IMG/VR virus record: IMGVR_UViG_3300048672_000495
Span: 1-55,126 of that record
Strand: one strand, 5' to 3'
Source: a virus
Length of the DNA: 55,126 nt
The notes under the pieces are model-generated. The model was not told where the DNA came from and searched no databases. It saw only the letters and a list, made by a program, of their open reading frames with translations. This document shows, piece after piece, positions 1 through 20,537 of this stretch (position 1 is its first letter; each line of letters begins with the position of its first letter). The position numbers and the translations under genes were made by a program.

Positions 1-969
1 ATAGTTATCTATATCTATAAAACCCTGCGTCATAAATGTAGATACTAGATTATCACTTAGATTAATATCTAATAATGTATTATTAACTATATCTCTACTA
101 CTAAATGTATATAAAGCTCCTACTGTAGTATTGGAAGAATTATAGTGCATCTCTACTACAGAACTATCATCAATAGTATTTTCTACTGCTATGTTGGTAA
201 CTATATTATTTCCACCATCAACATATTTTGTACTACCTATTGTAGCAAATGCAGTTAAATTAGTATTTATAGAGTATTTAGCTGATATACCATCATAATT
301 TGATTGCATTCCATGGGCAGCATATTGTCTTCCAATACTTAATCCATATCCTCTATAAGTATCATCAACAGATGCAAACAATAAAGATGTTTTATATTTA
401 TTTTTACTATTATATCTACTATCTGTTAAACTATATGCATCTGATAATCTTGCTCTAAAATTATAAGTATATTCATCTTTTTTAATAGTTGTAGAGTTAC
501 TAAAACTATTGGCTAATGCTTTTGTATACCTATCACTATATAAATAACTAGATATACTAGAAGAAGTACTAGTACTGTCAATTACTCTTGGTAAACTATT
601 TTTTGACTCTACTTCTGGACGTTCTAATTTTGATTCTAATTCTTTTATTCTTTGTGTAATATTACTATTATACACTTCTTCTGGATAATCATTTAAGTAT
701 AATTGATACTCAATTTTAGCTCTAGCATAATTACCTAGATTTTCTAGAGTAACTGCGATCAATAATTGGGCTCGTTTAGATACGTTTGACTTTGGCATTA
801 ACAAAATCGCGTTCAATAGCTCGATGGCAGAATCAAAATCCTTCTGAACTAGAAAGATTTTTGCTTCTGCCATCAATTCTTGACTTGTTTTGTTGTTTGT
901 TACTTGTGGTGTAGCTGTACTATTTAAACTTAATAATAATAAAACTATGTAGAGATATTTATATTTCAT
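1..969 (-). CDS. Exported TPR-like / probable outer-membrane barrel protein (3' end outside window)
   Basis: Open from an ATG at 969 to the window edge (323 codons, no stop). The N-terminus KYKYLYIVLLLLSLN is a clear signal peptide. Residues ~25-100 look like a helical repeat (repeats of AKIFLVQKDFDSAIELLNAI type, TPR-like), and the rest is rich in alternating polar/hydrophobic stretches ending in aromatic residues (GYGLSIGRQYAAHG, LTAFATIGSTKY), as in outer-membrane beta-barrels. Function is not recognised; surface alteration or superinfection exclusion is only a guess. It sits downstream of tRNA-Pro on the same strand. Confidence 0.7.
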   Translation of the reverse strand, partial: MKYKYLYIVLLLLSLNSTATPQVTNNKTSQELMAEAKIFLVQKDFDSAIELLNAILLMPKSNVSKRAQLLIAVTLENLGNYARAKIEYQLYLNDYPEEVYNSNITQRIKELESKLERPEVESKNSLPRVIDSTSTSSSISSYLYSDRYTKALANSFSNSTTIKKDEYTYNFRARLSDAYSLTDSRYNSKNKYKTSLLFASVDDTYRGYGLSIGRQYAAHGMQSNYDGISAKYSINTNLTAFATIGSTKYVDGGNNIVTNIAVENTIDDSSVVEMHYNSSNTTVGALYTFSSRDIVNNTLLDINLSDNLVSTFMTQGFIDIDNY

Positions 970-984
970 TTCTCCACAATAAAT

Positions 985-1073
985 TGGTCGGAGTAGGAGG
1001 ATTCGAACCTCCGGGGCTTTTATACCCTCGGTTCCAAGCCGAGAACGCTACCAGGCTACGTGATTACACTCCG
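985..1073 (-). tRNA. tRNA-Pro (anticodon TGG), atypical core
   Basis: Acceptor CGGAGTG pairs with TACTCCG, followed by discriminator A and an encoded CCA. The anticodon stem CTCGG/CCGAG is perfect with loop CTTGGAA, giving anticodon TGG. The T arm GGAGG-TTCGAAT-CCTCC is perfect. Odd points: 89 nt including CCA, three extra bases before the D stem, and a ~14-nt variable region able to form GGG/CCC, unlike a class I tRNA-Pro. Confidence 0.88.
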
Positions 1074-1074
1074 A

Positions 1075-1266
1075 TTAATCGTAATAATTACCAACAGGAC
1101 CAGAGGTAAGAATAACCTCATCACCTTTTGCTAACTGAATTTTTGCATTATGTCTATAAGCACGTTCGTCGTGCTTCATCATGAATTTACCACCCTCACA
1201 ATGTTTTCCCCACTGGCATTGGCGGCAAGAACAAGATTTAGGAGTTTGCTTAGTATTAGTATCCAT
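1075..1266 (-). CDS. Small Cys-rich protein
   Basis: 63 residues with a C-S-C-R-Q-C-Q-W-G-K-H-C cluster near residues 12-23, suggesting metal binding. The SD-like TTTGGAG lies just before the ATG at 1266. The start overlaps the stop of the upstream gene by one base (TAATG), so the two are probably translationally coupled. Family not recognised. Confidence 0.7.
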   Translation of the reverse strand: MDTNTKQTPKSCSCRQCQWGKHCEGGKFMMKHDERAYRHNAKIQLAKGDEVILTSGPVGNYYD

Positions 1267-1463
1267 TATATCTCCAAAGGAGTTATCTTTTTTATAATGT
1301 GGGACCTATACATTTTAGGTCCTATTCGTTTTAATTGTATCTCAACTTCTGTAATAAACTTTAATCTAAGTCTATTATCTTTGGTTAAGTCAAAACCCAA
1401 ACTTTTATAATACTCTACAGCATCTTCCATAGTTTGGAAAATCACTTCTTTGTTATAAGGCAT
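1266..1463 (-). CDS. Hypothetical small protein
   Basis: 65 residues, mixed charge, no motif recognised; contains a DAVEYYKSLGFDL segment likely to be helical. It is the first gene of a two-gene unit with the Cys-rich protein, joined by a one-base stop/start overlap. Upstream is a 350-base structured non-coding tract. Confidence 0.65.
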   Translation of the reverse strand: MPYNKEVIFQTMEDAVEYYKSLGFDLTKDNRLRLKFITEVEIQLKRIGPKMYRSHIIKKITPLEI

Positions 1464-1812
1464 GATTCCCCTTAAAGTTCACTCCTATAAGTAGGATGGT
1501 TACCTACTTACTGGGCTAAACTCTAACTCTAGCAATTAATAGCGGAGGTGGTTACTCGTTGCAACAAGCCACTACGTCACTTTAAGCGTACAAATTCTAA
1601 CGCACTATTAACTGTGTTAGGTAATAGATAACCCTAACGCCCCTTATTGACTAGTCCATAGAGCAAAATATTATGCATCAAGGATCGGGTTTATTACTGA
1701 TATGGGGCAGTACTACCCATACGTTGTAATCACGTGTTTTGCGAGATTCATCACCCGCTTTCTAGTTGTAATTAGACTACACGCTATCCTAGTATTACGT
1801 GCTTGAATTTTT
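1464..1812 (-). other. Structured non-coding tract between tRNA-Leu and small genes
   Basis: No convincing ORF in ~350 bases. Contains a perfect 8-bp hairpin (1488-1495 with 1503-1510, 7-base loop) and several weaker ones. It lies downstream of tRNA-Leu on the minus strand, so it may be a trailer or a separate RNA of the same transcript. Strand is inferred from the flanking tRNA and genes. Confidence 0.5.
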
Positions 1813-1896
1813 TGGTACCCAAGAAGAGACTCGAACTCTTAATCCTCGCGGCGGTGGCTTCTAAGACCACAGTGTATACCATTCCACCACTTGGGC
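1813..1896 (-). tRNA. tRNA-Leu (anticodon TAG)
   Basis: Class II tRNA with encoded CCA. Acceptor GCCCAAG/CTTGGGT; anticodon stem GTGGT/GCCAC, loop CTTAGAA, anticodon TAG; long variable arm; T arm AAGAG-TTCGAGT-CTCTT. It reads CUA, a Leu codon used very often in the AT-rich phage genes, so codon compensation is a plausible role. Confidence 0.93.
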
Positions 1897-2551
1897 ATAT
1901 TCTTATTAAACAGCAGCCTATTCATCACTTTATTATTGAATAGCATTCATATGTTAAACAACTAATTGCGTTAAGTTGTGTGCACCATCAGTGATATGTT
2001 GTTTTTGTACCGTCGTACTGGTATGCGCCTGCGCCTGTGAGGACTCGAACCCCAACTACCCCACATACTGCTGATTAATAAAAACATCCTGCTTACTAGC
2101 GTACAGGTCGATCTCTTTCCATCGAAGGTGGCTATATCACAGTTTAGCTACTGACTTGTCATCTTTACCCTAGGAAGTGCTACAAGCATGCACTATTATA
2201 AAACTAGCTGTCTACTACTGTTCCATTAAAGGTAAGACTTAGTATAATTCGTCCCAGTTCCACATCTTTTTAACACAAGTCCTGTGGTTGCTTGTGAGCT
2301 AGTATATTGGTACCAGGTACTGGAATCGAACCAGTGTTCGCCGCCTTATCTAGACGGTGCTTAAGAGTTTATAAGGCTCCCTCATAGGCCAACATTAGCA
2401 AACCTGGCATAAATCAAATATTGAATAGTACAGGTCGTGGTAGTTCTAATACACCCAGTTGACGCTGTTTTTTGCCATCCGTCAAAATGACCGCACAGTT
2501 ACTCTTTATATTCGTGCGCCTATACTATTCAATATGTAATCTTCCCATCGA
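1897..2551 (-). ncRNA. Structured non-coding RNA tract with its own promoter
   Basis: 655 bases without a credible gene. Transcription should start near 2551 from the promoter at 2558-2586. The first domain is closed by a perfect 13-bp stem (2418-2430 with 2523-2535) enclosing ~92 bases with smaller hairpins. Next comes the unusual tRNA at 2308-2408. Further down, a T-arm-like sequence (2038-2054) has no convincing cloverleaf around it. The hairpins CTATTCA/TGAATAG and CAACT/AGTTG follow. Whether this is one RNA or several processed pieces is unknown. Confidence 0.6.
2308..2408 (-). tRNA. Atypical tRNA, isotype unresolved
   Basis: Acceptor GCCAGGT/ACCTGGT, discriminator A, encoded CCA, and a perfect T arm ACTGG-TTCGATT-CCAGT leave little doubt that this is tRNA-derived. 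However it is 101 nt long and the core does not fold canonically: candidate anticodon loops lie around TTATAAA and TAGATAA, and a 7-bp GCCTTAT/ATAAGGC pairing competes with both. It may be a class II tRNA with an extra-long variable arm, an interrupted tRNA or a tRNA mimic. Confidence 0.6.
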
Positions 2552-2557
2552 ATACAT

Positions 2558-2586
2558 ATTATACACCAAAGATTGAATAAAATCAA
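2558..2586 (-). promoter_or_regulatory. Sigma-70 promoter of the 1.9-2.55 kb ncRNA tract
   Basis: On the minus strand TTGATT (2581-2586), a 17-bp spacer, and TATAAT (2558-2563). It overlaps the end of the 43-residue gene and points into the structured tract containing the atypical tRNA and tRNA-Leu. Confidence 0.75.
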
Positions 2587-2588
2587 GC

Positions 2589-2720
2589 CTAAAATTCTTG
2601 GCCTTCTGGCCACCCGCAAATCATTATAGTAATGTATTTAGCGATAGTGTTAATACCCATAGCAATAAAATATATTGCTAGAAATGCCAGAAACCAGTGT
2701 TGATGCCAAAAATCCCACAT
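2589..2720 (-). CDS. Membrane mini-protein (43 aa)
   Basis: The ORF begins MWDFWHQHWFLAFLAIYF, a Trp/His-rich N-terminus followed by one hydrophobic segment (residues ~9-35) and a short polar end (WPEGQEF). The ATG lies two bases after the stop of the upstream YfiM-like gene, consistent with translational coupling. Single-pass mini-proteins of this style are common in tailed phages; function unknown. Confidence 0.65.
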   Translation of the reverse strand: MWDFWHQHWFLAFLAIYFIAMGINTIAKYITIMICGWPEGQEF

Positions 2721-2722
2721 TG

Positions 2723-3040
2723 TCATGTTAGTAGTGTTCCAAATAGTTGTTTATGAGTAATAATCCATTTACCTACTGCTGCACCAAATAAAGCTCCAAC
2801 TGATCCAACTGTGAAGTCTTTAAATGATGGTGTATGTTTGTCTGGGTGCATTGCATCAAATATTTCTTTTGTAGCAGCTGAACCTACTCCGGTAGAGAAA
2901 CCCATTTCAGCGTCATCTGTTAACACAGTTACTATCAATGCTATTACAAATCCAGCGATTAAATGAAGTATTTTATCAATACCCCACCACTTATCAGTAG
3001 ATTGTAATATCTGTAGTAACATGCTCGATAATTTTGGCAT
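2723..3040 (-). CDS. YfiM/DUF2279-like membrane protein
   Basis: 105 residues. The region DKILHLIAGFVIALIV, a central SAATKEIFDAMHPDK segment and a C-terminal small-residue helix GSVGALFGAAVGKW match the layout of the YfiM-like small membrane proteins often found in phage genomes. Two to three membrane segments. A role in envelope attachment or lysis is possible but unproven. Coupled to the 43-residue membrane protein downstream. Confidence 0.65.
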   Translation of the reverse strand: MPKLSSMLLQILQSTDKWWGIDKILHLIAGFVIALIVTVLTDDAEMGFSTGVGSAATKEIFDAMHPDKHTPSFKDFTVGSVGALFGAAVGKWIITHKQLFGTLLT

Positions 3041-3451
3041 AGGCTCTCCAATAATAAGTCCCGGTTACTCGATCCGGGAACACTACTAAAGGCGGTGTTA
3101 GCTATAGCCCCAAATCATTCTACTAGCCCGTACGTCAGATTTGGAATTGAGTACGTGACGATGCGTTTACCTTCTAACGCCAACCTACCATGCTAAGTTT
3201 ACTAACAGCACATGGATTTTCCCACATCTAATCTGCACATTATACTGATCTCTTTGAACCAGTATTTGTCGCCCCATTGCAGTCTGAAGCATGTCCTTTA
3301 TATGGCGGACATTTCCATTATTGGTTCCGTCGTTCTGGACCTCGGAGGAACCACTACCCGAGGGAGATGTATCTGGTCGGAGCATTCCAGATTTAGCGTC
3401 TTGCGATCCTCCTAACAGTGTCGGCCTTAGCTTTCAGCCCACCGCTTTACA
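3041..3451 (-). other. Structured non-coding tract
   Basis: 411 bases with no supported gene; overlapping open frames exist but lack SD sites and disagree in strand. Near 3056 the sequence TAAGTCCCGGTTACTC recurs almost exactly near 4060 (one change), in both cases followed by GGAACACTA. Further pairings include CCCGG/CCGGG, GGTTCC/GGAACC and TCTGG/CCAGA. This suggests a repeated RNA element; strand assumed from the flanking genes. Confidence 0.45.
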
Positions 3452-3847
3452 TTACTTTCTACAAAAGAAAATTGAATCTGTGTAATACTTAGTAAGATCA
3501 GTAGCTGGTCCAACATACATATACATGTTATTGGTATCGTATGTTCCAATAGTCTCAGCCTTTACACCACCAGGCAAAAAGTCTGTATACATTGGATGTT
3601 CTTCAAACTTCCATACCTTATCATTGTAGACAAAGGTAGCTTTGATTCCTTGAAAATCCACAACTGCTGTTGCACGAACTTCTTCAAAAATCATGTCAAT
3701 AGTGAAGTTAACTCCACTAAGTACACAATTATATTTACCATTGTGTGCAGCATAATTATATGCTGGAGGGGCTGTAGGACCACTGTCACCACCACCACCA
3801 CAAGCTGTAAGAACTGCCAGTGCTAGAATACTAAGAATCTTTTTCAT
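3452..3847 (-). CDS. Putative lipoprotein
   Basis: 131 residues. MKKILSILALAVLTACGGGG is a signal peptide with a lipobox (LTAC, Cys at 16), so the mature protein should be lipidated and envelope-anchored. The remainder is a small beta-rich domain ending with a CRK tail; two Cys (in YNCVLSG and at the C-terminus) could form a disulfide. Good SD (AAAGG) before the ATG. Family not recognised; could act in superinfection exclusion like other phage lipoproteins. Confidence 0.75.
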   Translation of the reverse strand: MKKILSILALAVLTACGGGGDSGPTAPPAYNYAAHNGKYNCVLSGVNFTIDMIFEEVRATAVVDFQGIKATFVYNDKVWKFEEHPMYTDFLPGGVKAETIGTYDTNNMYMYVGPATDLTKYYTDSIFFCRK

Positions 3848-4288
3848 ATTACCTTTGTTAGTTTATTTTAGTGAAATGGGCCAGCGGTCCGGTCTCCCGC
3901 ATTGAAGTGTATATACACAGCTACTCACGATTGTATTATGACCCATAGTAGAATACACATCTTGCTTATGTGGCTTTAGGGCACGAAAGCAATCGCGACC
4001 CATAACTTGATTGAAGTATGGAAAACCATACTTCCTACCACAGATTATGTACTCTACTATAAGTCCCGCTTACTCTTTGCAGGGTCGGAACACTAGCCCT
4101 CTCCGACAGCTTGGGCACACATCACTTAGTTCGATCCGTAGCTTAGATGTGCAAATGAATCACCTACGGCTTCTGAATTAATCCCGGTTACCAAACTTCC
4201 GGGTTGCTCTAGATTTAAGTATACTTAAATCGGCAAGGCTCACGTTTCAATGAGAATCCTAGATCACATCCATCTAGTAGGGTTCTTT
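3848..4288 (-). other. Structured non-coding tract with 20-bp palindrome
   Basis: 441 bases without a gene. Contains the second copy of the TAAGTCCCGSTTACTC element (~4060), a perfect 20-bp palindrome at 4212-4231 (GATTTAAGTA and its mirror), a CCCGG/CCGGG hairpin at ~4184-4202, a CCGTAG/CTACGG pairing near 4137-4175 and a CTAGAT/ATCTAG hairpin just after the downstream end of the 4289-4573 gene. Strand inferred. Confidence 0.45.
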
Positions 4289-4573
4289 TTAAAGCTGCTT
4301 CTTCTTAATGCGTTCTACGATACCATCAATAAAAGCTTCGTCCTTTATAAAGGAAACTGCTTCAAGTGCGGAAAGTTTTGCCTTACCTGAAACCTCATAC
4401 TTATAGTCACGAAGTTCTTCACTAATAGCCTTTTCAACAGCAATTCTATGGTACTTTATAAACCATTCTGATTTTTTTACTTCTTCTACGATTTGAGCAG
4501 CAATTAATCTTGCCTCTATACGCGGTGGAGACTCAGGAATTTCAAGATACTTGCGAAGAAACTTTTTTAGCAT
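4289..4573 (-). CDS. Hypothetical helical protein
   Basis: 94 residues, almost entirely charged helix (IEARLIAAQIVEEVKKSEWF, EKAISEELRDYKY, FIDGIVERIKKKQL), so probably an alpha-helical cytoplasmic protein. It stands alone between two long non-coding tracts. No family recognised. Confidence 0.65.
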   Translation of the reverse strand: MLKKFLRKYLEIPESPPRIEARLIAAQIVEEVKKSEWFIKYHRIAVEKAISEELRDYKYEVSGKAKLSALEAVSFIKDEAFIDGIVERIKKKQL

Positions 4574-5481
4574 TTTATTATTAGTTAGTTGTTTGGTGGT
4601 CCATCAAGGTAACGATCCTCCTGTCCCGATGGGAAACGGGGTTACAGCCCGCGCACTCTCCTTAAGTGTCTAATGAACCAATATTAAAATATAGTAGCTA
4701 ATCGGCCATGCCCTGCTCCGGTTTACCGGCTACAGCTTCCCTCTTTCAAGTTTCTCCGATCGGTCCCCCAATCCCTAACTTATGCTTTGGGCTCTAAGGG
4801 TTTCTCTTACTACTATAAGTATTTTCTGAAGGGCCCGGACGGTTATTTGGGGCTCGGTCCCATACATATGCACGTTAGTCTTATATACTTTTAAATATAA
4901 GGTGTGTTCTGGAAAGGAGATAGTGGCAATTGTTTACGCGGTTGTCCCGTATATCAGAAAATATATTAAAGTATAACTAATACGACAGCATTGCCGCAAT
5001 GACTACCTTTTCAGTATGCCAGGATATCACAATTTAACATTCCTGCCGAGCTTGCGGGTCGGGGTCTGTGCGTGATTGCATAGGGCACTGTTAGTTATAC
5101 TTTAATATAAAAATGGGTCTACGAGTCCAATTGTATAGCTAATTCACAATTACGTAGTCTAGTCACGCCTCCACTTATCGTCAATCGGTATCGGAGCTTA
5201 TCCCGAATCCCAATCTATTGTAGCTTCATCGAACGCCGCTGACATACCGATCAGCTTCACCCATTAAGATTAAATAGTTCCTGGCCAGGCTAGATAATTT
5301 TCTCACTTGCTTCCGCCTACTAGTGACAAACAGGGGCAGAAGTATACGACTTCCGCGGCCTATGTCTCGTTCCCATTGTCTTGTATCCAATTATCTTACT
5401 ATTTAATCTTAATGATCCAGCTTACTTGATACTGGGCTAATAATTTGTGGCTATTAGCAGTGCGCCATTTCTCACTTCAGA
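4574..5481 (-). ncRNA. Large ornate structured RNA candidate (~900 nt)
   Basis: About 0.9 kb with no credible ORF and a dedicated minus-strand promoter immediately upstream (5488-5516). Two domains are closed by very long perfect stems: 17 bp (5262-5278 with 5398-5414), with a nested 7-bp stem (5293-5299 with 5389-5395), and 19 bp (4962-4980 with 5091-5109) enclosing ~110 bases that hold CATTG/CAATG and CCGA/TCGG hairpins. A third, weaker long-range stem pairs 4690-4697 with 4810-4817. Size, stem-rich domain plan and location among phage tRNAs recall GOLLD/ROOL RNAs; this is inference, not identification. Confidence 0.65.
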
Positions 5482-5487
5482 ATATAT

Positions 5488-5516
5488 ATTATAATCCAAA
5501 ATACTTCGCAATTCAA
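5488..5516 (-). promoter_or_regulatory. Sigma-70 promoter of the 4.6-5.5 kb ncRNA
   Basis: Minus-strand TTGAAT (5511-5516), 17-bp spacer, TATAAT (5488-5493). It lies in the gap just after the stop of the cytochrome-b-like gene and points only into non-coding sequence. Confidence 0.8.
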
Positions 5517-5523
5517 GCTTAAA

Positions 5524-5928
5524 TTAATACATGTGAACAGCAACTATGTGTACCGTTACCGCAATAATCATCAGTATTACGAATGGTTTATGATAAATAT
5601 GCCAATGTACAAACATTATAACATACTTATCATGTAGATGGCCCATAGTATGTATTACTTTATTATAAAGATACCTACCATATACACCACTTATAGCCAC
5701 TATCATTAATGATATGAACGCTATTGTAGCATTCAGACTACCAAAATATAATCTAGTATGAGCAATAACTATAAAAGGAGTTATTGCTCCTATAAACATA
5801 TGAAGATGGAACCATAAACGAATGTTACCACCAATCCAGGGAAAATTCTTTCTAACGTGGTACAATAGTAGTATTAGTATTAGAAATCCCGAAAATATCC
5901 CTGTTTGGTATGAGTAACTATTGTTCAT
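5524..5928 (-). CDS. Histidine-rich cytochrome-b/ferric-reductase-like membrane protein
   Basis: 134 residues with four hydrophobic segments. His residues cluster at membrane edges (41, 43, 57, 93, 97, 99, 108, 110, 113, 127, 132), and the stretch IAHTRLYFGSLN followed by SGVYGRYLYNKVIH resembles the H-x(5)-G-S-L-N and GRYLY-x(2)-IH signatures of bacterial cytochrome-b-like membrane proteins. Bis-His heme binding and a transmembrane redox role are therefore likely by analogy, not shown. It overlaps the upstream gene by 11 bases. Confidence 0.65.
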   Translation of the reverse strand: MNNSYSYQTGIFSGFLILILLLYHVRKNFPWIGGNIRLWFHLHMFIGAITPFIVIAHTRLYFGSLNATIAFISLMIVAISGVYGRYLYNKVIHTMGHLHDKYVIMFVHWHIYHKPFVILMIIAVTVHIVAVHMY

Positions 5929-6109
5929 CCTTATACTTTTTTATTGCTTCCGCATCCAACGAACAATACACCCTAAATTTATCTTTTCCTGCTTCGTCAT
6001 AAAAAGCTTCAGCCATTTTTTCAAGTGACTCGAACTTTTCAGATGGAAGTGAGTAATATCTACTTAGGAACGCAGATACTAGAAATTCTTTGCTATAACC
6101 TGCTGCCAT
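5918..6109 (-). CDS. Hypothetical small protein
   Basis: 63 residues from the ATG at 6109, preceded by AAAGGG; an in-frame TTG five codons upstream is less likely. Sequence MAAGYSKEFLVSAFLSRYYS continues into an acidic/basic helix. The consensus promoter at 6131-6159 lies just upstream, making this the first gene of a unit with the cytochrome-b-like protein. Function unknown. Confidence 0.65.
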   Translation of the reverse strand: MAAGYSKEFLVSAFLSRYYSLPSEKFESLEKMAEAFYDEAGKDKFRVYCSLDAEAIKKYKDEQ

Positions 6110-6130
6110 AAAAATCCCTTTCAAGCCTTA

Positions 6131-6159
6131 ATTATACAGGCTTTGATCAGGAAATTCAA
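6131..6159 (-). promoter_or_regulatory. Sigma-70 promoter
   Basis: Minus-strand TTGAAT (6154-6159), 17-bp spacer, TATAAT (6131-6136). It overlaps a small inverted repeat (GCCT...AGGC) that may end transcription of the upstream HNH gene. Confidence 0.75.
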
Positions 6160-6167
6160 GATAAAAT

Positions 6168-6497
6168 TTACTTAGAAGCAGCAGATGCTGGTGGTTTAGC
6201 AGTTACAGCAGCCTTCTTCAATGAAGCACACTGTGAACGTTCAAACTTATCCTTCTTATATGATTCTTCTTTTGTTTGCCACTGCATGTTTTCAATGGCA
6301 TCTTTACCACCTGCACATAATGGAATTATGTGGTCTACCACAAATCCTGGACAGGTAGTTTTACTATGTTCTACTTTAGCTGGGCACGGATGAGTCTTTA
6401 CAAACTCTTTACGCACTTTAGCTGATCTAGTAGTAGCATCTACTGAGCTAATTAAACTTATTGCTAGTAGACATGCTACTAATAGACTCTTTTTCAT
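6168..6497 (-). CDS. Exported HNH-type nuclease
   Basis: 109 residues. The signal peptide MKKSLLVACLLAISLISSVDA ends in a plausible V-D-A cleavage site. The HNH core reads VDHIIPLCAGG (D55, H56), then ENMQWQT (N70) and KKDKFER, as in the compact periplasmic HNH family. Cys 38, 49, 61 and 90 could form disulfides or bind zinc. Export implies action in the periplasm, for example against incoming DNA, which is inference. Starts directly after the stop of the upstream 36-residue gene. Confidence 0.8.
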   Translation of the reverse strand: MKKSLLVACLLAISLISSVDATTRSAKVRKEFVKTHPCPAKVEHSKTTCPGFVVDHIIPLCAGGKDAIENMQWQTKEESYKKDKFERSQCASLKKAAVTAKPPASAASK

Positions 6498-6608
6498 TTA
6501 ATTCCTATCACTTTGTTCGTCCACAGGAGGACGCTTACCGCGACGCGCATTACGTCTTTGTTTTTCTTGTTCTTTACGCTCTTTGCGTTCGTCCGGGTCT
6601 TGTTTCAT
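6498..6608 (-). CDS. Small highly charged protein (36 aa)
   Basis: Nearly all Lys/Arg/Glu/Gln (KERKEQEKQRRNARRGKRPP). The ATG overlaps the phosphatase stop as ATGA and its own stop abuts the ATG of the exported HNH gene, an arrangement typical of a real coupled gene. It could bind nucleic acid; no family recognised. Confidence 0.55.
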   Translation of the reverse strand: MKQDPDERKERKEQEKQRRNARRGKRPPVDEQSDRN

Positions 6609-7438
6609 AGCACTAGTGCCTCAATCTCATTAGTTCCGACATTGTCGGTTTTCCAAAACTTACCAGTCAATGGCTCTGTAACTGTAAGTCCAGCCCAACT
6701 GTGCCGATCTACAGCAAATGCCATAGTATCAATATTGGTTTGGCCGATTACTGTAGTTGGCATACGTACTGGTGTATGTCCACTAAAGATGTGTGACAGT
6801 TTATCATTAAAGAAATCTGTTACTGCATGTTTAGACAGAATCGCTTTGTGTAGAATACCATGTTGCTTACTAACTTCTTTTGCAAAAAGTTCCGCAAACA
6901 TTTCCCTACCCCACAAAAGCCCGTGCCCATCTCTACAAACACGACTAGCAATATCTTTAAAGTTAGTAACTAGACTTTCATCAGTAATAACTTCATCTTC
7001 TTTGCCAAGAATTTCAGCATGAATAACGTGAAATTTCTTTCCATTACTCATATTTACTGTAATTAGCCAAGGGAGTTTCTCTACTATTGGTAGAAGAAGG
7101 TCAACAACATCGTGTTTTTCTTCATCGTTCACAAATTCAAACCAGTTTCCACCGTTTCTGAACCACCAGGCACCAGTAGGTCCACCAGTTAGAAAGTCTT
7201 CCATTAGTTGTTCGTGGTTGCTTTTTACACAGTGAAACCAGGGTTCAAGCAGTAGACTCAAACACCTAAAACTGTGTGGGCCTCTATCAACTAGATCACC
7301 CACCGAAAACATACGATCTTTTTCAAAATCAAATCCTACGTGTCCCATAAACCCAACTAGCAGTTCATGTGATCCGTGTAGGTCCCCACACACAAAGTCT
7401 CTACCTTGAGTGTTTACATCAAACGTTTTTATCTTCAT
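6605..7438 (-). CDS. Lambda-type serine/threonine protein phosphatase
   Basis: 277 residues. Metallophosphatase signatures are in order: GDLHG (18-22), GDLVDRG (47-53), NHE (74-76), a later H in HVIHAE, and FSGHTPV near the C-terminus. This is the PPP/lambda phosphatase family (phage lambda NinI is the model), a metal-dependent cytoplasmic phosphoprotein phosphatase. Overlaps the 36-residue gene downstream by four bases. Confidence 0.9.
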   Translation of the reverse strand: MKIKTFDVNTQGRDFVCGDLHGSHELLVGFMGHVGFDFEKDRMFSVGDLVDRGPHSFRCLSLLLEPWFHCVKSNHEQLMEDFLTGGPTGAWWFRNGGNWFEFVNDEEKHDVVDLLLPIVEKLPWLITVNMSNGKKFHVIHAEILGKEDEVITDESLVTNFKDIASRVCRDGHGLLWGREMFAELFAKEVSKQHGILHKAILSKHAVTDFFNDKLSHIFSGHTPVRMPTTVIGQTNIDTMAFAVDRHSWAGLTVTEPLTGKFWKTDNVGTNEIEALVL

Positions 7439-7529
7439 TATTTGTTTTAGTTAGCCAACAGATTAGCATACATCTTAGTACAAGTACTAAGAGTATCAGT
7501 ATTATTACTGTTATATATGCATAATCCAT
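7419..7529 (-). CDS. Single-pass membrane mini-protein (36 aa)
   Basis: MDYAYITVIILILLVLVLRC followed by a short polar tail. One transmembrane helix. It overlaps the start of the phosphatase gene by 20 bases and begins right after tRNA-Arg(CCT). No clear SD, so it may not be translated. Confidence 0.4.
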   Translation of the reverse strand: MDYAYITVIILILLVLVLRCMLICWLTKTNNEDKNV

Positions 7530-7532
7530 AAT

Positions 7533-7607
7533 TGGTACCACCAGTAGGAGTCGAACCTACGTCATTGGTTTAGGAAACCACAATACTTTCCGTTGTACTA
7601 TGGTGAT
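7533..7607 (-). tRNA. tRNA-Arg (anticodon CCT)
   Basis: Acceptor ATCACCA/TGGTGGT with encoded CCA; D arm GTAC-AACGGAAA-GTAT; anticodon loop TTCCTAA (CCT); T arm GTAGG-TTCGACT-CCTAC. The outermost anticodon pair is a mismatch (G27-A43). Reads AGG, frequent in the AT-rich phage genes. Confidence 0.88.
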
Positions 7608-7611
7608 ATAT

Positions 7612-7686
7612 TGGTCCTGCGTGAAAGAATCGAACTCTCATCTGAGGGGTAGAAACCGACTGTACTTTCCATTGTACTAACGCAAG
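7612..7686 (-). tRNA. tRNA-Arg (anticodon TCT), mismatched anticodon stem
   Basis: Acceptor CTTGCGT/ACGCAGG, encoded CCA, D stem GTAC/GTAC, T arm GAGAG-TTCGATT-CTTTC. The loop TTTCTAC gives TCT, but the anticodon stem GTCGG/CCCTC has two central mismatches (T-T, C-C), so it may be degenerate or need special processing. Tandem with tRNA-Arg(CCT), four bases apart, and very similar in the D arm. Confidence 0.75.
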
Positions 7687-7693
7687 AATTTAT

Positions 7694-8002
7694 TTAGTAA
7701 GGCATGCCAATTATAGGATAGAAAGCAGCGCGCTGAGTAGGATTCATAAAGAATTCCCATTCCTTATGTCCTTCGTCAAACAGTTCTATCGAATTAATAG
7801 ATACGGCTGACTCATCTTCGTATTCTTCATCTTCACATACTGAATCACCATATTCTTGAGAGAATTGCTCACGTTGGGTTTCTTCCATATAGTCTGCGGC
7901 TAGAATCTCAGCCTCTGTTTCGTTCTCAGCCCAAACCACTACATTCATCTGACCACCACACCAATGTGCGTTCTCGTAGTCAATTAGGTAACGTTGTTTC
8001 AT
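7694..8002 (-). CDS. Hypothetical acidic protein
   Basis: 102 residues. Starts MKQRYLIDYENAHWCGGQMN and has a strongly acidic middle (CEDEEYEDES). No family recognised. It is the last gene of a chain of four short genes joined by ATGA overlaps and sits just before the tandem Arg tRNAs. Confidence 0.7.
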   Translation of the reverse strand: MKQRYLIDYENAHWCGGQMNVVVWAENETEAEILAADYMEETQREQFSQEYGDSVCEDEEYEDESAVSINSIELFDEGHKEWEFFMNPTQRAAFYPIIGMPY

Positions 8003-8133
8003 TTGTATTCGTTTGTTAGTATATCGAGTGGAATAACCTTTAATGCTTCTAGATACATCTCTTTATTAAAAAATACTTCGTTCTCCAAATCCTCTAGAAG
8101 TTGTATAATGTAATTAAATGTTGCTGCGTTCAT
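7999..8133 (-). CDS. Small protein, paralog of the adjacent 58-aa protein
   Basis: 44 residues starting MNAATFNYIIQLLEDLENEV. Its first residues match those of the upstream gene product (MNPATFNYTLEATEELLELM), pointing to a tandem duplication. ATGA overlaps with the genes on both sides argue that it is translated. Function unknown. Confidence 0.6.
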   Translation of the reverse strand: MNAATFNYIIQLLEDLENEVFFNKEMYLEALKVIPLDILTNEYK

Positions 8134-8306
8134 ATTTCGTTTTTAAATAGTTTAATTAGCATATCTTTTCTATAATCTACTGGCATAGATGCATAAAGTG
8201 CTGAGCATCTAATAGCCTGTTCTTTGCTAAGCTCACCTTTTATGTTCATGAGCTCAAGAAGTTCTTCAGTAGCTTCAAGTGTATAATTAAATGTTGCGGG
8301 ATTCAT
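8130..8306 (-). CDS. Small protein, paralog of the adjacent 44-aa protein
   Basis: 58 residues, MNPATFNYTLEATEELLELM followed by a helical tail (LSKEQAIRCSALYASMP). Overlaps both neighbours by four bases. Shares the MNxATFNY start with the next gene downstream. No known family. Confidence 0.6.
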   Translation of the reverse strand: MNPATFNYTLEATEELLELMNIKGELSKEQAIRCSALYASMPVDYRKDMLIKLFKNEI

Positions 8307-8461
8307 GTGTTACTCCAAATCTGTCCAATAATAAAACTACTTGCTAAAAATACCCAATATTCAAGGCTAAATATAGCGACTGGATGTAGTATTTGAAGTG
8401 TTGAAGTAAGTATTGCTGTTGAAAAGATTATTTTTGGTCCTTTTAGTGTTTCTGGTTTCAT
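8303..8461 (-). CDS. Membrane mini-protein (52 aa)
   Basis: Two hydrophobic stretches (ILTSTLQILHPVAIF and EYWVFLASSFIIGQIW) in 52 residues suggest a small hairpin membrane protein. First gene of the ATGA-linked chain running down to 7694; begins eight bases after tRNA-Arg(ACG). Confidence 0.55.
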   Translation of the reverse strand: MKPETLKGPKIIFSTAILTSTLQILHPVAIFSLEYWVFLASSFIIGQIWSNT

Positions 8462-8468
8462 TTTATTT

Positions 8469-8543
8469 TGGTAGCTCCTGAAGGAATCGAACCCTCATCG
8501 CCAAGTTCGTAGCCTGGTGCATTCTCCGTTATACGAAGGAGCC
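8469..8543 (-). tRNA. tRNA-Arg (anticodon ACG)
   Basis: Fully canonical: acceptor GGCTCCT/AGGAGCT with CCA, D arm GTAT-AACGGAGA-ATGC, anticodon stem CCAGG/CTTGG with loop CTACGAA (ACG, A34 probably converted to inosine), T arm GAGGG-TTCGATT-CCTTC. Third arginine tRNA in 1.1 kb. Confidence 0.95.
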
Positions 8544-8548
8544 ATTGT

Positions 8549-8677
8549 TTAGTTAAAATGTTTTCCTGCCCAAAAATGTCCAATAATTGGCATATTAAAC
8601 TTCATATTGAACCAAATATCTCTATTTTTATAATCGAACTGGAATTTTTTAAAGTAATTTCTCTTTTGTTTCTTCAT
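8549..8677 (-). CDS. Small basic aromatic protein (42 aa)
   Basis: Starts MKKQKRNYFKKFQFDYKNRD and continues with aromatic residues (DIWFNMKFNM). The ATG lies one base after the stop of the upstream zinc-finger-like gene, supporting translation by coupling. No family recognised. Confidence 0.5.
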   Translation of the reverse strand: MKKQKRNYFKKFQFDYKNRDIWFNMKFNMPIIGHFWAGKHFN

Positions 8678-8678
8678 T

Positions 8679-8879
8679 TTAAGGTCCGTAAGCATCTAGA
8701 CAATACTTACAAATATCAAGTCCGTCTAAATCTTTATGCATTGACTTTTGCCATAGACCACAACAATTACATTGTTTGAGGTTAATTTCCAAGTCAGAAG
8801 TAAATTCTATCACACATTCACTACAACCTTCAAGTACAGTTTTTCTAGTGTTAAGTAGGGCTGACTCTAACGGTTTCAA
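8679..8879 (-). CDS. Small Cys-cluster (zinc-ribbon-like) protein, TTG start
   Basis: 66 residues. CNCCGLWQ and CKYC in the second half form a likely four-Cys zinc site. The start is TTG overlapping the upstream stop (TTGA) with a strong SD (GAGGAAAAAGG) before it. A regulatory or nucleic-acid-binding role is a guess. Confidence 0.65.
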   Translation of the reverse strand: MKPLESALLNTRKTVLEGCSECVIEFTSDLEINLKQCNCCGLWQKSMHKDLDGLDICKYCLDAYGP

Positions 8880-9574
8880 CCTTTTTCCTCACGTTGCTCT
8901 AATTCTAATACTGCTAACAGATTCCAAATCATTTGAGCAAGATGCTTAGTATAAATACCATTTGGGCCATCATCATATACTTTACCAGATCCTAGCTGAA
9001 GCATATGCCTACCAAATGCATCCATATATCTATCTTTACCATCTGGTACAGTTAACCAACCATGCGCGGTATATTTCTTAGCTCCAGTAGTACCAACCTT
9101 AGCAACTTCTTCTAAAGCATTACTAAAATCACCTAGTACCAACCATGGACGCAACTTACCAGCATCAGCCTTCGATCCTGCTTCATTCAATGATTTGCCA
9201 TTAGGATCAGTCTCAATATATGTAATATTTTTAGGATCGTACGGAGTATGTGTTATAGTTGCACTACTAGCTTTAGGGTTATCAAGATGTATAACTCTTA
9301 CATAATTAGATCCTATAACTCCACCACAACTCATACTTGCAAGTTCTTCTGCAAATAATGGCTCAGCTACTTTTACTGGCTCAGGAAATGGCCATACAGC
9401 AGATTTACTCGCTTCTATTTCCTCATCAGGATAAGGCCAGGCCCAGTTATTTTCTGGTTTGCTAGTTGGGAAGGGCCATGGAAGTGAGGACTCATCCATA
9501 ATCGTAGGACGCACTACTTCTTTCTTACTAAATGCTTTTTTCCACAGTTGTTTTGCTTGAAAATCTTTTTTCAT
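8876..9574 (-). CDS. DUF5664-type dATP/dGTP diphosphohydrolase-like protein with WPFP-repeat N-terminus
   Basis: 232 residues. The C-terminal domain (about 137-228; KADAGKLRPWLVLGDFSNAL, GAKKYTAHGW, DRYMDAFGRHMLQL, KHLAQMIWNLLAVLELE) matches the all-alpha MazG-related DUF5664 family, whose described members (MazZ) hydrolyse purine deoxynucleoside triphosphates in phages with modified or substituted bases. The N-terminal ~70 residues are different: SLPWPFP, NWAWPYP and AVWPFP repeat a Trp-Pro motif, perhaps a docking tail. Substrate cannot be told from sequence. Confidence 0.78.
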   Translation of the reverse strand: MKKDFQAKQLWKKAFSKKEVVRPTIMDESSLPWPFPTSKPENNWAWPYPDEEIEASKSAVWPFPEPVKVAEPLFAEELASMSCGGVIGSNYVRVIHLDNPKASSATITHTPYDPKNITYIETDPNGKSLNEAGSKADAGKLRPWLVLGDFSNALEEVAKVGTTGAKKYTAHGWLTVPDGKDRYMDAFGRHMLQLGSGKVYDDGPNGIYTKHLAQMIWNLLAVLELEQREEKG

Positions 9575-15082: not shown

Positions 15083-15378
15083 AGTACGATAATGAAACTA
15101 CCAAGAAATTAGTTGCTGATTACGCCTCAGGCGTGTCAGTTGCGCTCCTTGCGGAGCAATTAGACGTCCCTGAGCGCTCTATAATTGCCAAACTGGCCTC
15201 ACTTGGTGTATACAAGAAGAAGGAATACCTTAATAAACAGGGTGAACCGCCCATAAAAAAGGAAGAATACGTCGAGCGTATTGCAAATTTGCTAAAAGTC
15301 AATGTAGAACTACTAGAATCTCTTGAAAAGGTCAATAAAAACGTCTTAAAGATGCTAGAAGACGCATTAACTTCCTAA
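15079..15378 (+). CDS. Putative HTH DNA-binding regulator, paralog 1
   Basis: 99 residues. ADYASGVSVALLAEQLDVPE then RSIIAKLASLGVYKKKEY reads as a helix-turn-helix; the C-terminus is a helix VELLESLEKVNKNVLKMLE. The same fold and the core RS-x-IAKL-x(2)-GVY recur in the proteins at 16999 and 18110. Similar small proteins are common in T4-like and marine phages. A transcription-regulatory role is inferred from the fold and from the repeated operator-like DNA nearby. Confidence 0.7.
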   Translation: MKYDNETTKKLVADYASGVSVALLAEQLDVPERSIIAKLASLGVYKKKEYLNKQGEPPIKKEEYVERIANLLKVNVELLESLEKVNKNVLKMLEDALTS

Positions 15379-15383
15379 AACTC

Positions 15384-15420
15384 AAAAAGCCTCGTAATAT
15401 CACTATTACGAGGCTTTTTT
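15384..15420 (+). terminator. Rho-independent terminator
   Basis: AAAAGCCTCGTAATA, loop TCAC, TATTACGAGGC, then TTTTTT. A 15-bp stem six bases after the stop of the HTH gene; it closes the plus-strand operon. Confidence 0.95.
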
Positions 15421-15550
15421 GCGTCGGAAGTCAACTGTGACTATTTTTTCATTCAAAACAGCCCAACCACAATAATTATGACCCAACCGCGCTAATTGCT
15501 TGCCGGAGGCAAGAGGCTGCGCCGCTTGGGGCGATTCGCTAAATTCTCAC

Positions 15551-15579
15551 TTGACAAATCTGCTCAGCACTGGTAAAAT
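15551..15579 (+). promoter_or_regulatory. Plus-strand promoter P0 (GGCGC class)
   Basis: TTGACA (15551-15556), 17-bp spacer, TAAAAT (15574-15579), then TTGGCGC. Same -10/GGCGC arrangement as the promoters in the 17.6-23.5 kb island. A degenerate TTACAT-TTTG-TTACAAT repeat lies downstream at 15600-15616. It is followed by a small ORF at 15666. Confidence 0.7.
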
Positions 15580-15665
15580 TTGGCGCCGAAACAGACTTGT
15601 TACATTTTGTTACAATTGAGCAAAAACTAAACCCCCAGAATCCGAAGATTAAGGGGGTTAGAAGT

Positions 15666-15854
15666 ATGACTAGTACTTTTTATATAGATATCTTGAGTCG
15701 TCGAAACTCTCAATCTCCACTGTTTTTTAAGAGCTGGGACTCTGCCAGGTTTATGCTCGGTAGCCGAGCACCAGCCGTATCGCGTCGTACTGGGTTTCTT
15801 TGTGTGGTAAGAGCTACTTACCTACACGTATGTGTTCCTAAGTTGGTACCATAA
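15666..15854 (+). CDS. Doubtful small ORF (62 aa)
   Basis: MTSTFYIDILSRRNSQSPLF with a GGGGG SD-like stretch before the ATG and promoter P0 upstream. However, the composition is unusual (many Ser/Arg), the sequence contains the strong hairpin GCTCGG/CCGAGC (about 15754-15768), and it runs into the structured RNA region, so it may be part of an RNA rather than a gene. Confidence 0.3.
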   Translation: MTSTFYIDILSRRNSQSPLFFKSWDSARFMLGSRAPAVSRRTGFLCVVRATYLHVCVPKLVP

Positions 15855-16838
15855 AGGGTTCGAGACCGCGTACTAGGTAACACAATATAACAACGTCTCC
15901 CGACGTTGGCTGGATCATGTTGGGTTGCCTCTGCATCCACGATCTGATCCGCAACAAGCTCGATAGCACTCCAAAGCTATCGCATTTAAGTCCAATTCGG
16001 GCAGGATTCCATCCTGGGGTGGACACTAAATAAACCGACTCTCACGGTATTCTAGATCTAAGTTTCGCTTGATGGCCCTTGCATGCTAGTCTGCGGCACT
16101 CGCTACACCAGTCTATATAAGGAGCTGCTCGACTGGTATCTGCGCTGCTCGCTAATCTTATAATTCGTCTTGGATTTGATTAAGATCCAATGTAACGTCT
16201 ACACTTATATTAACCTCCGGGCCGCATGTAGACGCCTCCCAGATTCTGCCTTTCGTTGTTGTGAGACTATTTTGCGATCTTCCCACTACTACTCGCAGCC
16301 GCTTATATGCCGGGCCAGATCAGACATCCTGGTTTAAGTCCTTATGTCAGAGACTACCAACTTAAGTTTTGGCAAACTAACTATACGGATGACACCAGAA
16401 TAGTCATAGGAGAGTAATCTCTTTAGGTAACAGGCACGCAAATGCTTTCGACCTTATTAGACACCTACGGTCAGGAGACTCAGAGAAATCAGACTCATCT
16501 GACTAATCTACGACTGACCGTTTCGACCGAATTGCACGGTCTCATCAGGATGCTTTAATTGGTACCCCTTATGGGTTTCGATCCCATCTGCACAACGTGA
16601 AAGGCTGTTGACCTCGCCAGAAGTCCAAAGGGGCATAAATAGGGGATGGCTGTCGACCTGGTATAATTTTCACGACACTTAGTTCATCTATTCCCAACCA
16701 TGTATGGGAACCAAAGAGCACCATCTGGAAAATTGTAGTATAAGCTCGCCGTCTACTCACGCTGCCTCTGCTTGACGTCCCTTTACAAGGTAACGTGTTA
16801 TACTACGCGCCGGTGATTCCGGTCTTTCTCTCACTTCA
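15855..16838 (-). ncRNA. Large structured RNA region with embedded tRNA-Glu
   Basis: About 1 kb of non-coding sequence read leftward from tandem promoters at 16845 and 16939. Perfect stems: 16468-16474/16514-16520, 16196-16203/16227-16234, 16107-16113/16131-16137, 16170-16175/16185-16190, 16002-16007/16011-16016, 15961-15967/15976-15982, and 15891-15897/15902-15908, the last capped on the minus strand by a GGGA (GNRA) tetraloop. tRNA-Glu sits near the 5' end. The design (tRNA plus ~700 nt of dense stems) resembles large ornate phage RNAs; identity is unproven. Confidence 0.6.
16560..16634 (-). tRNA. tRNA-Glu (anticodon TTC)
   Basis: Acceptor GCCCCTT/AAGGGGT, encoded CCA, D arm GACT-TCTGGCGA-GGTC, anticodon stem ACAGC/GTTGT with loop CTTTCAC (TTC), T arm ATGGG-ATCGAAA-CCCAT. 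The T loop begins with A instead of the near-universal T54. Located in the 5' part of the structured RNA transcript. Confidence 0.93.
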
Positions 16839-16844
16839 ACATCT

Positions 16845-16873
16845 ATTATACATGAAAAGGGGATGCGAATCAA
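16845..16873 (-). promoter_or_regulatory. Proximal tandem promoter for tRNA-Glu / structured RNA
   Basis: Minus-strand TTGATT (16868-16873), 17-bp spacer, TATAAT (16845-16850). The -10 flank TTTCATGTATAATA is identical to that of the distal promoter at 16939, indicating a duplicated promoter. Confidence 0.8.
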
Positions 16874-16938
16874 GACAATATTTATTGATCTGAATCGCTG
16901 CTTTTCTTCTTGTCGCTAATTCCCCAGTCCATATACAT

Positions 16939-16967
16939 ATTATACATGAAAGGAGCCCCAGGATCAA
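16939..16967 (-). promoter_or_regulatory. Distal tandem promoter
   Basis: Minus-strand TTGATC (16962-16967), 17-bp spacer, TATAAT (16939-16944). The -35 lies inside the terminator hairpin of the 16999 gene, so termination and re-initiation are superimposed. Confidence 0.7.
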
Positions 16968-16992
16968 GTGAGAATTTTTGATCCTAGGCTCC
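16952..16992 (-). terminator. Terminator-like hairpin after the 16999 gene
   Basis: Stem GGAGCC-TA-GGATCAA pairs with TTGATCC-TG-GGGCTCC, six bases after the stop codon, followed on the minus strand by only a short T run (TTT). Confidence 0.65.
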
Positions 16993-16998
16993 GCACCG

Positions 16999-17310
16999 TC
17001 AGGCTTCGAGAGCCTTCAGGACGAACATCAGAGCCGGACCCGTGGCCTTTTCCAGCGACTCCACCTGTTCTTCGGACGCGCCGACCGCCTTGGCGATCTT
17101 GGCAACCATTTCCGCCTTCAGCATCTCACGCTTGCCGGCTTCCTTGGCCTTGGGGACGTACACACCTTCCTTCGACAGCTTGGCGATCACCGAGCGTGCC
17201 GACTTGCCCAGCTTGACAGCCAGAGCTTCCACAGCCACACCAGCTTGATAGCCGGCAACCAGTTCCGCAACCTGTTCGGCGGAATAATTCGCAACCTTTT
17301 CAGCAGACAT
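16999..17310 (-). CDS. Putative HTH DNA-binding regulator, paralog 2
   Basis: 103 residues, homologous to the proteins at 15079 and 18110: LVAGYQAGVAVEALAVKLGK then ARSVIAKLSKEGVYVPK, with helix QVESLEKATGPALMFVLKAL at the end. SD AGGAGAG before the ATG and a clean promoter at 17370-17398. Codon choice is much more G+C-rich than in paralog 1 (for example GCC, CTG, AAG), so the copies have had different histories. Confidence 0.75.
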   Translation of the reverse strand: MSAEKVANYSAEQVAELVAGYQAGVAVEALAVKLGKSARSVIAKLSKEGVYVPKAKEAGKREMLKAEMVAKIAKAVGASEEQVESLEKATGPALMFVLKALEA

Positions 17311-17369
17311 TTTCTCTCTCCTATGTTAATGGGTTAATTTATTCGGATTGTTCTGCGATCCGATAAAGA

Positions 17370-17398
17370 ATTATAAATCGTTTGGATAAAAGCCTCAA
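17370..17398 (-). promoter_or_regulatory. Sigma-70 promoter of HTH paralog 2
   Basis: Minus-strand TTGAGG (17393-17398), 17-bp spacer, TATAAT (17370-17375); about 55 bases upstream of the start codon. Confidence 0.75.
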
Positions 17399-17606
17399 GT
17401 GAATATTTTTTAATGTATACTCGTGGCTCAACATTTTTTGGATACAAACGCGCACGTTAAAACTTATGCGGGCCGGCTGCCTACGCAGCGTTGGGTTATG
17501 CTTGATCTCCCAATCCATTTCATTATTATACGCGGGAAATTTCAAAAATTCAAGAAAATTATTTCCGACCTTACGACTAATTGGGGTCAGGCTCAGAAAA
17601 ATTCAC

Positions 17607-17635
17607 TTGACAGCGCGTGGTCGCGCGAGTATAAT
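17607..17635 (+). promoter_or_regulatory. Plus-strand promoter P1 (GGCGC class)
   Basis: TTGACA (17607-17612), 17-bp spacer containing the inverted repeat GCGCG-tggt-CGCGC, TATAAT (17630-17635), then GGGCGC. It points away from the HTH paralog 2 gene into a non-coding region with a 14-bp direct repeat. Confidence 0.75.
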
Positions 17636-17825
17636 GGGCGCGGCCAAATTATACCGCTTTACCACTGGCGCAGAACGCACTAAGTGTATTTTTTGTAGCA
17701 CTACCACTGGCGCAGCGCACTGCTTTTTTTCGACGTGAGCGCTCACTAACGTCCAAATGTGTGTAAGTGCTTACATTGAATGCGAGTGAGAATGATTCGC
17801 GTTCAGGGCCCGAATTGTAGCCTAT

Positions 17826-17875
17826 GTAACAGATTGTAAAAGTCATTGACACACCCCAATTTTATGTGATAAAAT
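17826..17875 (+). promoter_or_regulatory. Plus-strand promoter P2 with overlapping inverted repeat
   Basis: TTGACA (17846-17851), 18-bp spacer, TAAAAT (17870-17875), then TGGCGC. The perfect inverted repeat CCAATTTTAT-GTG-ATAAAATTGG (17856-17878) covers spacer and -10. A variant TTGTAA-type box lies just upstream (17826-17840). Confidence 0.8.
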
Positions 17876-17918
17876 TGGCGCGCCCGAAGTGAGTGCTCAC
17901 TTCGCTACCGGGCAAAAC

Positions 17919-17940
17919 AAAAACCGCGGCCGCGGTTTTT
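17919..17940 (+). terminator. Palindromic terminator ~50 bases after P2
   Basis: AAAAACCGCGG followed by CCGCGGTTTTT, a perfect 22-bp palindrome ending in T5. Functional in either direction; for P2 it would define an RNA of about 55-60 nt. Confidence 0.8.
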
Positions 17941-18083
17941 GAAAGTGAGTACCTGCTATGCGCAGGGATGCCAACCTAGCGGCTACCGATGGCGTCGGGT
18001 CACGGCCGCGTTTCTCGCTTTTTTGTCAATAGGGATTTACCCTATACCCGCCGCGATGACTTTATGCACGCATTGCGGGATTT

Positions 18084-18111
18084 AATCAATAGGGGTTTCC
18101 CCCTATTGATT
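18084..18111 (-). terminator. 12-bp hairpin at the end of HTH paralog 3
   Basis: AATCAATAGGGG-TTTC-CCCCTATTGATT overlaps the stop codon of the 18110 gene. No long T run, so it could be a terminator or an RNA-stabilising end. A shorter relative (TAGGG-ATTTA-CCCTA) lies near 18031. Confidence 0.6.
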
Positions 18112-18502
18112 ATTCGCCTACCGGGGCGACTTCGCCAGCCCTTTCCTCGCCATTTTCCAGCGGTTTGCTGTTGGCGAGCGCCGTGAAAATTTTCACCAGA
18201 GCGGTTTTGTTCGCCTTTGTGAGCGATTCCGTTTCCGATTCGGTCAACTTCAAAACCGCGCCGATCGCATCGGCGTGCGCGTCTTTCTTGACCGGCTTTT
18301 CGCCGTTCTTGCTGACATACGCCTTCGCCTTGTATACGCCTTCTTTCGTGAGCTTGGCGATCACGCTGCGAGCAGTCTTGCCGATGGCAACAGCCATCTT
18401 TTCGACGTTTTCCTTACTCGCGTCGGCAGCGTAGCCCGCGAGAATGGTTGCGGTTTGCGCATCGGTGTAATTCGGTGCCTTGACAGTCTTTTCGGTAGCC
18501 AT
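18110..18502 (-). CDS. Putative HTH DNA-binding regulator, paralog 3
   Basis: 130 residues. Same core as paralogs 1 and 2 (KTARSVIAKLTKEGVYKAK) preceded by an Ala-rich helix and followed by a C-terminal extension (ANSKPLENGEERAGEVAPVG) absent from the others. SD AAGGGC before the ATG; promoter at 18541-18569. Probably regulates genes of this island; target unknown. Confidence 0.75.
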   Translation of the reverse strand: MATEKTVKAPNYTDAQTATILAGYAADASKENVEKMAVAIGKTARSVIAKLTKEGVYKAKAYVSKNGEKPVKKDAHADAIGAVLKLTESETESLTKANKTALVKIFTALANSKPLENGEERAGEVAPVGE

Positions 18503-18540
18503 TTTTTGCCCTTTCGTGGCAGTTGTGAAGTGAAGTAGAG

Positions 18541-18569
18541 ACTATACCGGAATCCGAAAACCTTGTCAA
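18541..18569 (-). promoter_or_regulatory. Sigma-70 promoter of HTH paralog 3
   Basis: Minus-strand TTGACA (18564-18569), 17-bp spacer, TATAGT (18541-18546). A second, weaker TTGCGC-17-CATAAT pair lies upstream around 18630-18655, next to a TTACAAACTG repeat. Confidence 0.75.
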
Positions 18570-18660
18570 CTGTGGGGTTATTTCCCGTTGTTGCGTTGCG
18601 TTTGGTTTCTTGATCCGATAAGTAGATTATGAGGCATGGCAGGCCAGCGCGCAAGTGTTA

Positions 18661-18735
18661 TTACAAACTGTTACAATTGCATTTTCCTACCATATGCCCG
18701 CGTGCATGTCAAGCAGTATTACAAACTGTTACAAT
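18661..18735 (+). repeat. Two copies of the TTACAAACTGTTACAAT box
   Basis: Exact copies at 18661-18677 and 18719-18735. Each is a direct repeat of TTACAA with a 10-bp period, the geometry of tandem binding by OmpR/PhoB-type regulators (known family behaviour; which protein binds here is unknown). A third, degenerate copy at 18754-18770 abuts promoter P3. Confidence 0.75.
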
Positions 18736-18753
18736 TGCCCGGCCTGGGGCCTG

Positions 18754-18807: not shown

Positions 18808-18851
18808 TTTGGCGCCCGAAGTTAGTGAGTACTCACTAACTTAGTATATAA

Positions 18852-20531: not shown

Positions 20532-20537
20532 TCAGTT

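Follow-up and report, generated by a model that had tools for sequence, protein, structure and literature searches.

The question raised by this locus is what is made from a stretch of phage DNA in which a promoter is followed by a stem-closed domain, a tRNA-like sequence of unusual length, a T-arm-like sequence and tRNA-Leu, and whether, as the initial annotation suggested, these make up an array of processed RNAs. The window, that is, the whole stretch of DNA that was analysed, is a 55-kb virus record (IMGVR_UViG_3300048672_000495; 55,126 nt). Its terminase is 44–46% identical to those of T5-like phages (Demerecviridae), which are the best matches, and 61–71% identical to those of many aquatic T5-like contigs, and head and tail families were matched by PHROGs. 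The window represents part of the genome of a T5-like phage; the source phage, a relative of T5, had not been described before. By terminase and PHROGs the genome is thus of the T5-like kind in which a T5-type array of tRNAs and stable RNAs belongs; all of the window tRNAs lie on the minus strand, as in the T5 tRNA region, and non-coding RNA domains are interspersed with them under their own promoters. Such a setting of tRNAs and structured RNAs is already known from T5. T5-like phages commonly have tRNA-rich regions, in which a very strong promoter has been described on tRNA-Tyr (PMC11555353).

Searches of phages with the tract DNA gave no near match and, at greater distance, short similarities only, the best of which, among the matches listed, were to tRNA genes of Vibrio phages; against 20 T5-like records the matches were at chance level only. 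Close relatives sought through the flanking proteins yielded homologs of ~38% only, or none usable. Alternative genetic codes were tried for the tract and rejected, the coding being no better.

RNAs between the promoter and tRNA-Leu

The promoter TTGATT-17-TATAAT lies at 2586–2558 on the minus strand and is of a class common to other promoters of the source phage and its relatives. There are 18 instances of TTGA-N18-20-TATAAT in the window, compared with 1.75 per shuffle, and the pattern is also common in the tRNA arrays of the relatives. The promoter had been described as overlapping the end of a gene; the promoter itself stands, whilst it begins 2 nt past the stop codon of a 45-aa ORF (2726–2589) and does not overlap it. 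This membrane-like ORF shares an ATGA overlap with a 105-aa protein (3040–2723, minus strand), and the two look like a small coupled gene pair. The order along the minus strand is promoter, 118-nt domain, 101-nt tRNA, T-arm-like sequence and tRNA-Leu(UAG), the last located by ARAGORN at 1896–1813, at the end of the tract as annotated. Beyond it, a non-coding tract (1810–1470) runs into ORFs at 1463–1266 and 1266–1075 and then tRNA-Pro(UGG) at 1071–985. Between 2558 and the ORFs at 1463–1075 a terminator on the minus strand was looked for and not found, which leaves the claim that the promoter feeds only RNA unproven.

The 118-nt domain (2535–2418, minus strand), reported earlier with a 13-bp closing stem, was recovered by a stem search and by comparison of its fold with shuffles. 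Its arms, 2535–2523 and 2430–2418, form 13 perfect bp, reach 17 bp with one G-U through the extension TAGG/CCTG, and enclose three inner hairpins; a long uninterrupted double helix in a precursor, as looked for in an RNase III site, is therefore present. The minimum free energy is −37.7, compared with −21.3 ± 3.4 in shuffles (z = −4.85), and none of the 200 shuffles was as stable. Two further closed domains are found in a second tract (5500–4594, minus strand) fed by the promoter TTGAAT-17-TATAAT at 5516–5488: one at 5414–5262 with a 17-bp perfect stem and another at 5109–4962 with a 19-bp perfect stem and a fold z of −3.48. On the minus strand, the first 18 kb contain three perfect stems of at least 12 bp spanning 60–200 nt (13, 17 and 19 bp), where a shuffle has 0.25 on average, and such stems were absent from 100 shuffles of either tract. 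We found no homolog of the exact 118-nt domain, no non-tRNA Rfam family in the tract at gathering or relaxed thresholds, and no known large phage RNA (e.g., GOLLD, ROOL) with Rfam at E ≤ 5 in 1–9000 or 15300–18100.

The 101-nt RNA (2408–2308, minus strand) had been called a strange tRNA with perfect ends and a non-canonical core. The length and the ends are as described (acceptor of six Watson–Crick pairs and one G-U, perfect T-arm at 2335–2319, encoded CCA), but the RNA is much less strange than was thought: as in the relatives, an anticodon arm with the loop CTTATAA (anticodon TAT at 2373–2371) and a long variable arm (2357–2341) can be assigned in the core, and an irregular D-arm is the remaining oddity. 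A check by covariance model places the RNA above the gathering score of RF00005 (37.1 bits against 29, in a single-genome search); ARAGORN and a windowed, filtered cmscan both missed it.

Compared with 91 tRNAs of the source phage, T5 and the relatives, it gives its best global alignment with the tRNA-Ile(UAU) of relative L156. When the same comparison is ranked by z-score, Ile(UAU) is equalled by some Ser and Tyr tRNAs, so that the call also rests on shared loops: both RNAs have the anticodon-loop context TTATA and a long variable arm AAGCA...AGATAA, and the variable-arm motif GCA...AGATAA recurs in tRNA-Ile(UAU) of other relatives. A model built solely from the relatives' tRNA-Ile(UAU), R1, scores the RNA at 30.6 bits and ranks tRNA-Leu and one tRNA-Arg higher; for this reason we take R1 to back 'tRNA' and the loop motifs to back 'Ile(UAU)'. 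The tRNA-Ile(UAU) of aquatic T5-like phages (L153, L156, L157, L159 and L163) share with it the UAU anticodon in its TTATA context, the long variable arm with GCA...AGATAA, A73 and the encoded CCA; they differ in their length of 92–97 nt and in the D-arm, which is irregular in the window copy. Judged by sequence alone, on the UAU anticodon and the long variable arm with its conserved motif, the RNA is probably tRNA-Ile(UAU) with a long variable arm. As it passes the Rfam cut-off and finds its best match in the long-variable-arm tRNA-Ile(UAU) of the relatives, it is unusual but not alien.

The orphan T-arm-like sequence that had been noticed, TGGGG-TTCGAGT-CCTCA, lies at 2054–2038 (minus strand), where R1 gives 20.9 bits over 2110–2030. 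No acceptor partner was found for it and the fold energy around it is ordinary (z = −0.01), so it is probably a tRNA remnant. A tRNA-Tyr(GUA), missed by ARAGORN, occupies 4679–4594 (minus strand) at the 3' end of the 5500–4594 tract; its T-loop, ATCGTTA, is of the A54 type that is also found in the window tRNA-Glu and in tRNAs of the relatives.

More long non-coding structured tracts are seen on the minus strand at 3050–3452, 3850–4288 and 15650–16850. A hairpin with the loop GAGTAA/GGTAA and a CGGGA(C/T)TTAT-like tail is repeated at 3053–3068, 4058–4073 and 4176–4191, and a search of IMG/VR for this motif found none. In a G+C-rich stretch of short genes (15600–24120), TGTAACANNNTGTAA is present in 15 copies against 0.84 by chance and is possibly a regulator or origin-related site.

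Closing stems and interiors in relatives and T5

Stem-closed domains recur in the tRNA arrays of the relatives, with seven in L153 against 0.10 per shuffle and four in L157 against none; in the count for L156, some of the stems may fall in coding sequence. Several of the closing stems begin on the tRNA's own ACCA, unlike that of the 118-nt domain, which starts away from a tRNA CCA. Following tRNA-Lys, a stem (TACCATAT...ATATGGTA) is kept in L153, L157/L162, L159 and L163. All 17 of its pairs form in each of the three distinct versions, three of them being changed on both sides; with only three distinct stems, this conservation was matched by 17 of 500 shuffles and is suggestive by itself. The interiors at this locus measure 84, 125, 83 and 69 nt, respectively, and are mostly unrelated (z −1.5 to 1.4), L163 being closer to L157/L162 (z 2.6–3.5) and L157 and L162 carrying the same RNA. 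Following a tRNA-like RNA of ~166 nt, stems of 12–18 bp are kept in L153, L157/L162 and L159 whilst the interiors are unrelated (z −1.7 to 0.7, L157/L162 apart); L163 has no clean stem here. Ungapped stem counts were used for the tRNA-Lys pair L153/L157 and the pair after the tRNA-like RNA only. After tRNA-Pro the interiors are conserved too, between close relatives. As far as the sequences tell, the closing stem and not the interior is the common denominator across the loci of the relatives. A stem that is kept whilst its interior is swapped therefore fits the prediction for a processing site, and this suggests that, in related phages, it is the stem of these domains that does the work. No earlier description of interior exchange under a conserved stem was found in the open-access papers searched.

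The tRNA-like RNA itself (164–168 nt; L153 2899–3062, L157 1910–2077, L159 7759–7924, L163 4351–4187) is conserved in L153, L157/L162, L159 and L163. The acceptor, the D- and T-arms and the CCA are present, and the place of the anticodon arm is taken by a large domain with the invariant core CTCTCCTCTGCCGCAAGCACGAAG. In a structure predicted from the same alignment as was used for pair conservation, 98.9% of the cells are paired and 10 pairs are changed on both sides, which no shuffle equalled. Rfam gave a weak sub-threshold tmRNA match only, and no homolog was found in the window. It follows from this RNA that the T5-like group keeps tRNA-like RNAs whose cores have been replaced, as T5 RNA1 and RNA2 suggest. 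Circularly permuted (two-piece) tmRNA genes also occur in T5-like tRNA arrays (L154 640–1089, L155 6526–6951, L156 5509–5949); such tmRNAs have been described in other aquatic phages (PMC9004378).

The stable RNAs of T5 (AY543070) are RNAI, RNAIII, RNAIV, RNA1, RNA2, RNA2H and RNAX, all with the function 'unknown' in GenBank; RNA1 and RNA2 are annotated 'tRNA-like'. RNAIII has a 14-bp closing stem, which begins where RNAI ends and reaches the start of tRNA-His, and its 120-nt segment has at least 95% identity in 280 phage records; RNAX persists in 521. Like the window RNAs, those of T5 come from the same phage group, lie between tRNAs, have dedicated promoters, and comprise ~100–170-nt domains with long closing stems and 'tRNA-like' RNAs with odd cores. 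We found no sequence similarity between the two sets; the window stems, unlike those of T5, do not begin at a tRNA CCA, and the tracts are longer in the window.

It might be argued that the closed domain acts by itself as a small RNA (e.g., a decoy or regulator) and that the stem merely protects its ends. The persistence of RNAIII and RNAX in so many records, the interiors conserved after tRNA-Pro and the fold of the 118-nt domain, far below shuffles, are all in keeping with this, and because interiors are conserved after tRNA-Pro and in RNAIII, some may have a function of their own. We nevertheless think the explanation unlikely, as the stems persist over unrelated interiors both at tRNA-Lys and after the ~166-nt RNA. 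A bolder idea, which we also hold to be doubtful, is that T5-like phages use their stem-closed domains as exchangeable cassettes, in which unrelated cargos, some of them anti-defence or regulatory, are swapped by recombination within a conserved helix. The helix, often built on the tRNA CCA end, would then act as a docking and excision frame.

Decay, self-cleavage and processing

The tract could instead be decaying and unexpressed, in which case the tRNA would be a pseudo-tRNA, the T-arm a remnant and the hairpin due to chance. The orphan T-arm would suit this, as would the irregular D-arm of the 101-nt tRNA and its rejection by ARAGORN. The promoter is strong, however, the acceptor, T and variable arms of that tRNA are intact, and the stem is far above chance. 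Decay without conservation, the outcome named at the start as fatal to an RNA array, fails for this type of array, the same architecture recurring in the relatives, and we judge decay to be quite improbable.

Theta (HDV-like) ribozymes are associated with phage tRNAs and have been proposed to process tRNA 3' trailers (PMC10879173), and a search for them had been recommended. It found none: no Rfam ribozyme matched in 1–9000 at E ≤ 5, and a search for the HDV/theta topology, which recovered the HDV control, gave nothing above shuffles and nothing adjoining a tRNA. A nested double pseudoknot at a tRNA 3' end, as in theta ribozymes, was not found in the tract, nor was a hammerhead core between the promoter and tRNA-Leu. 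Elsewhere in the window, just downstream of the tRNA-Glu CCA, lies a complete type I hammerhead motif (16553–16461, minus strand) with the core CTGATGAG...CGAAA, stems I, II and III of 5, 5 and 8 bp, and a predicted cleavage GTA^GGTGT after 16466. It had no match in 100 shuffles, scores 22.8 bits with Rfam (below gathering; E 1.1e-4 per record) and was not found in 20 T5-like relatives. Even with this motif beside a tRNA and the published association, these searches make it very improbable that self-cleaving theta/HDV-like ribozymes flank the domain and the tRNA and trim tRNA 3' ends, and we disfavour it.

We therefore prefer, with a probability of roughly 0.6, the reading in which the tract is a unit of a T5-type tRNA/stable-RNA array and the long stems serve for processing, probably by host RNase III. 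The strong, middle-type promoter would transcribe a long precursor containing the stem-closed domains and tRNAs. The 13–17-bp AU-rich stem around the 118-nt domain would serve as a double-stranded processing site, most likely for host RNase III, and cutting it may release the enclosed RNA as a discrete product. The same cut would free the leader of the downstream tRNA-Ile for RNase P, with host exonucleases finishing the ends. The 101-nt RNA would enter this pathway as tRNA-Ile(UAU) with its long variable arm, and the lone T-arm would be what is left of a decayed tRNA.

Host RNase III is proposed on two grounds. The enzyme classically cuts long double helices in tRNA precursors. In addition, the tRNAs of T4 are matured by E. 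coli RNase III (PMC4810235), and the T4 precursor is likewise a polycistronic phage transcript of tRNAs that is processed at double-stranded sites; T4 is unrelated to the phage of the window, for which we infer the role of RNase III. As to the processed RNA array proposed in the initial annotation, the array stands, with the same mix of RNAs in the relatives and T5 and a conserved stem, and the processing is putative.

The tRNA regions of T5-like phages are a tool against host tRNA-cutting defences, and for this reason the release of the RNAs of such arrays matters. That the stem is kept and the interior replaced at orthologous tRNA loci leads to a testable claim, namely that it is the stem that works, with RNase III as its likely user.
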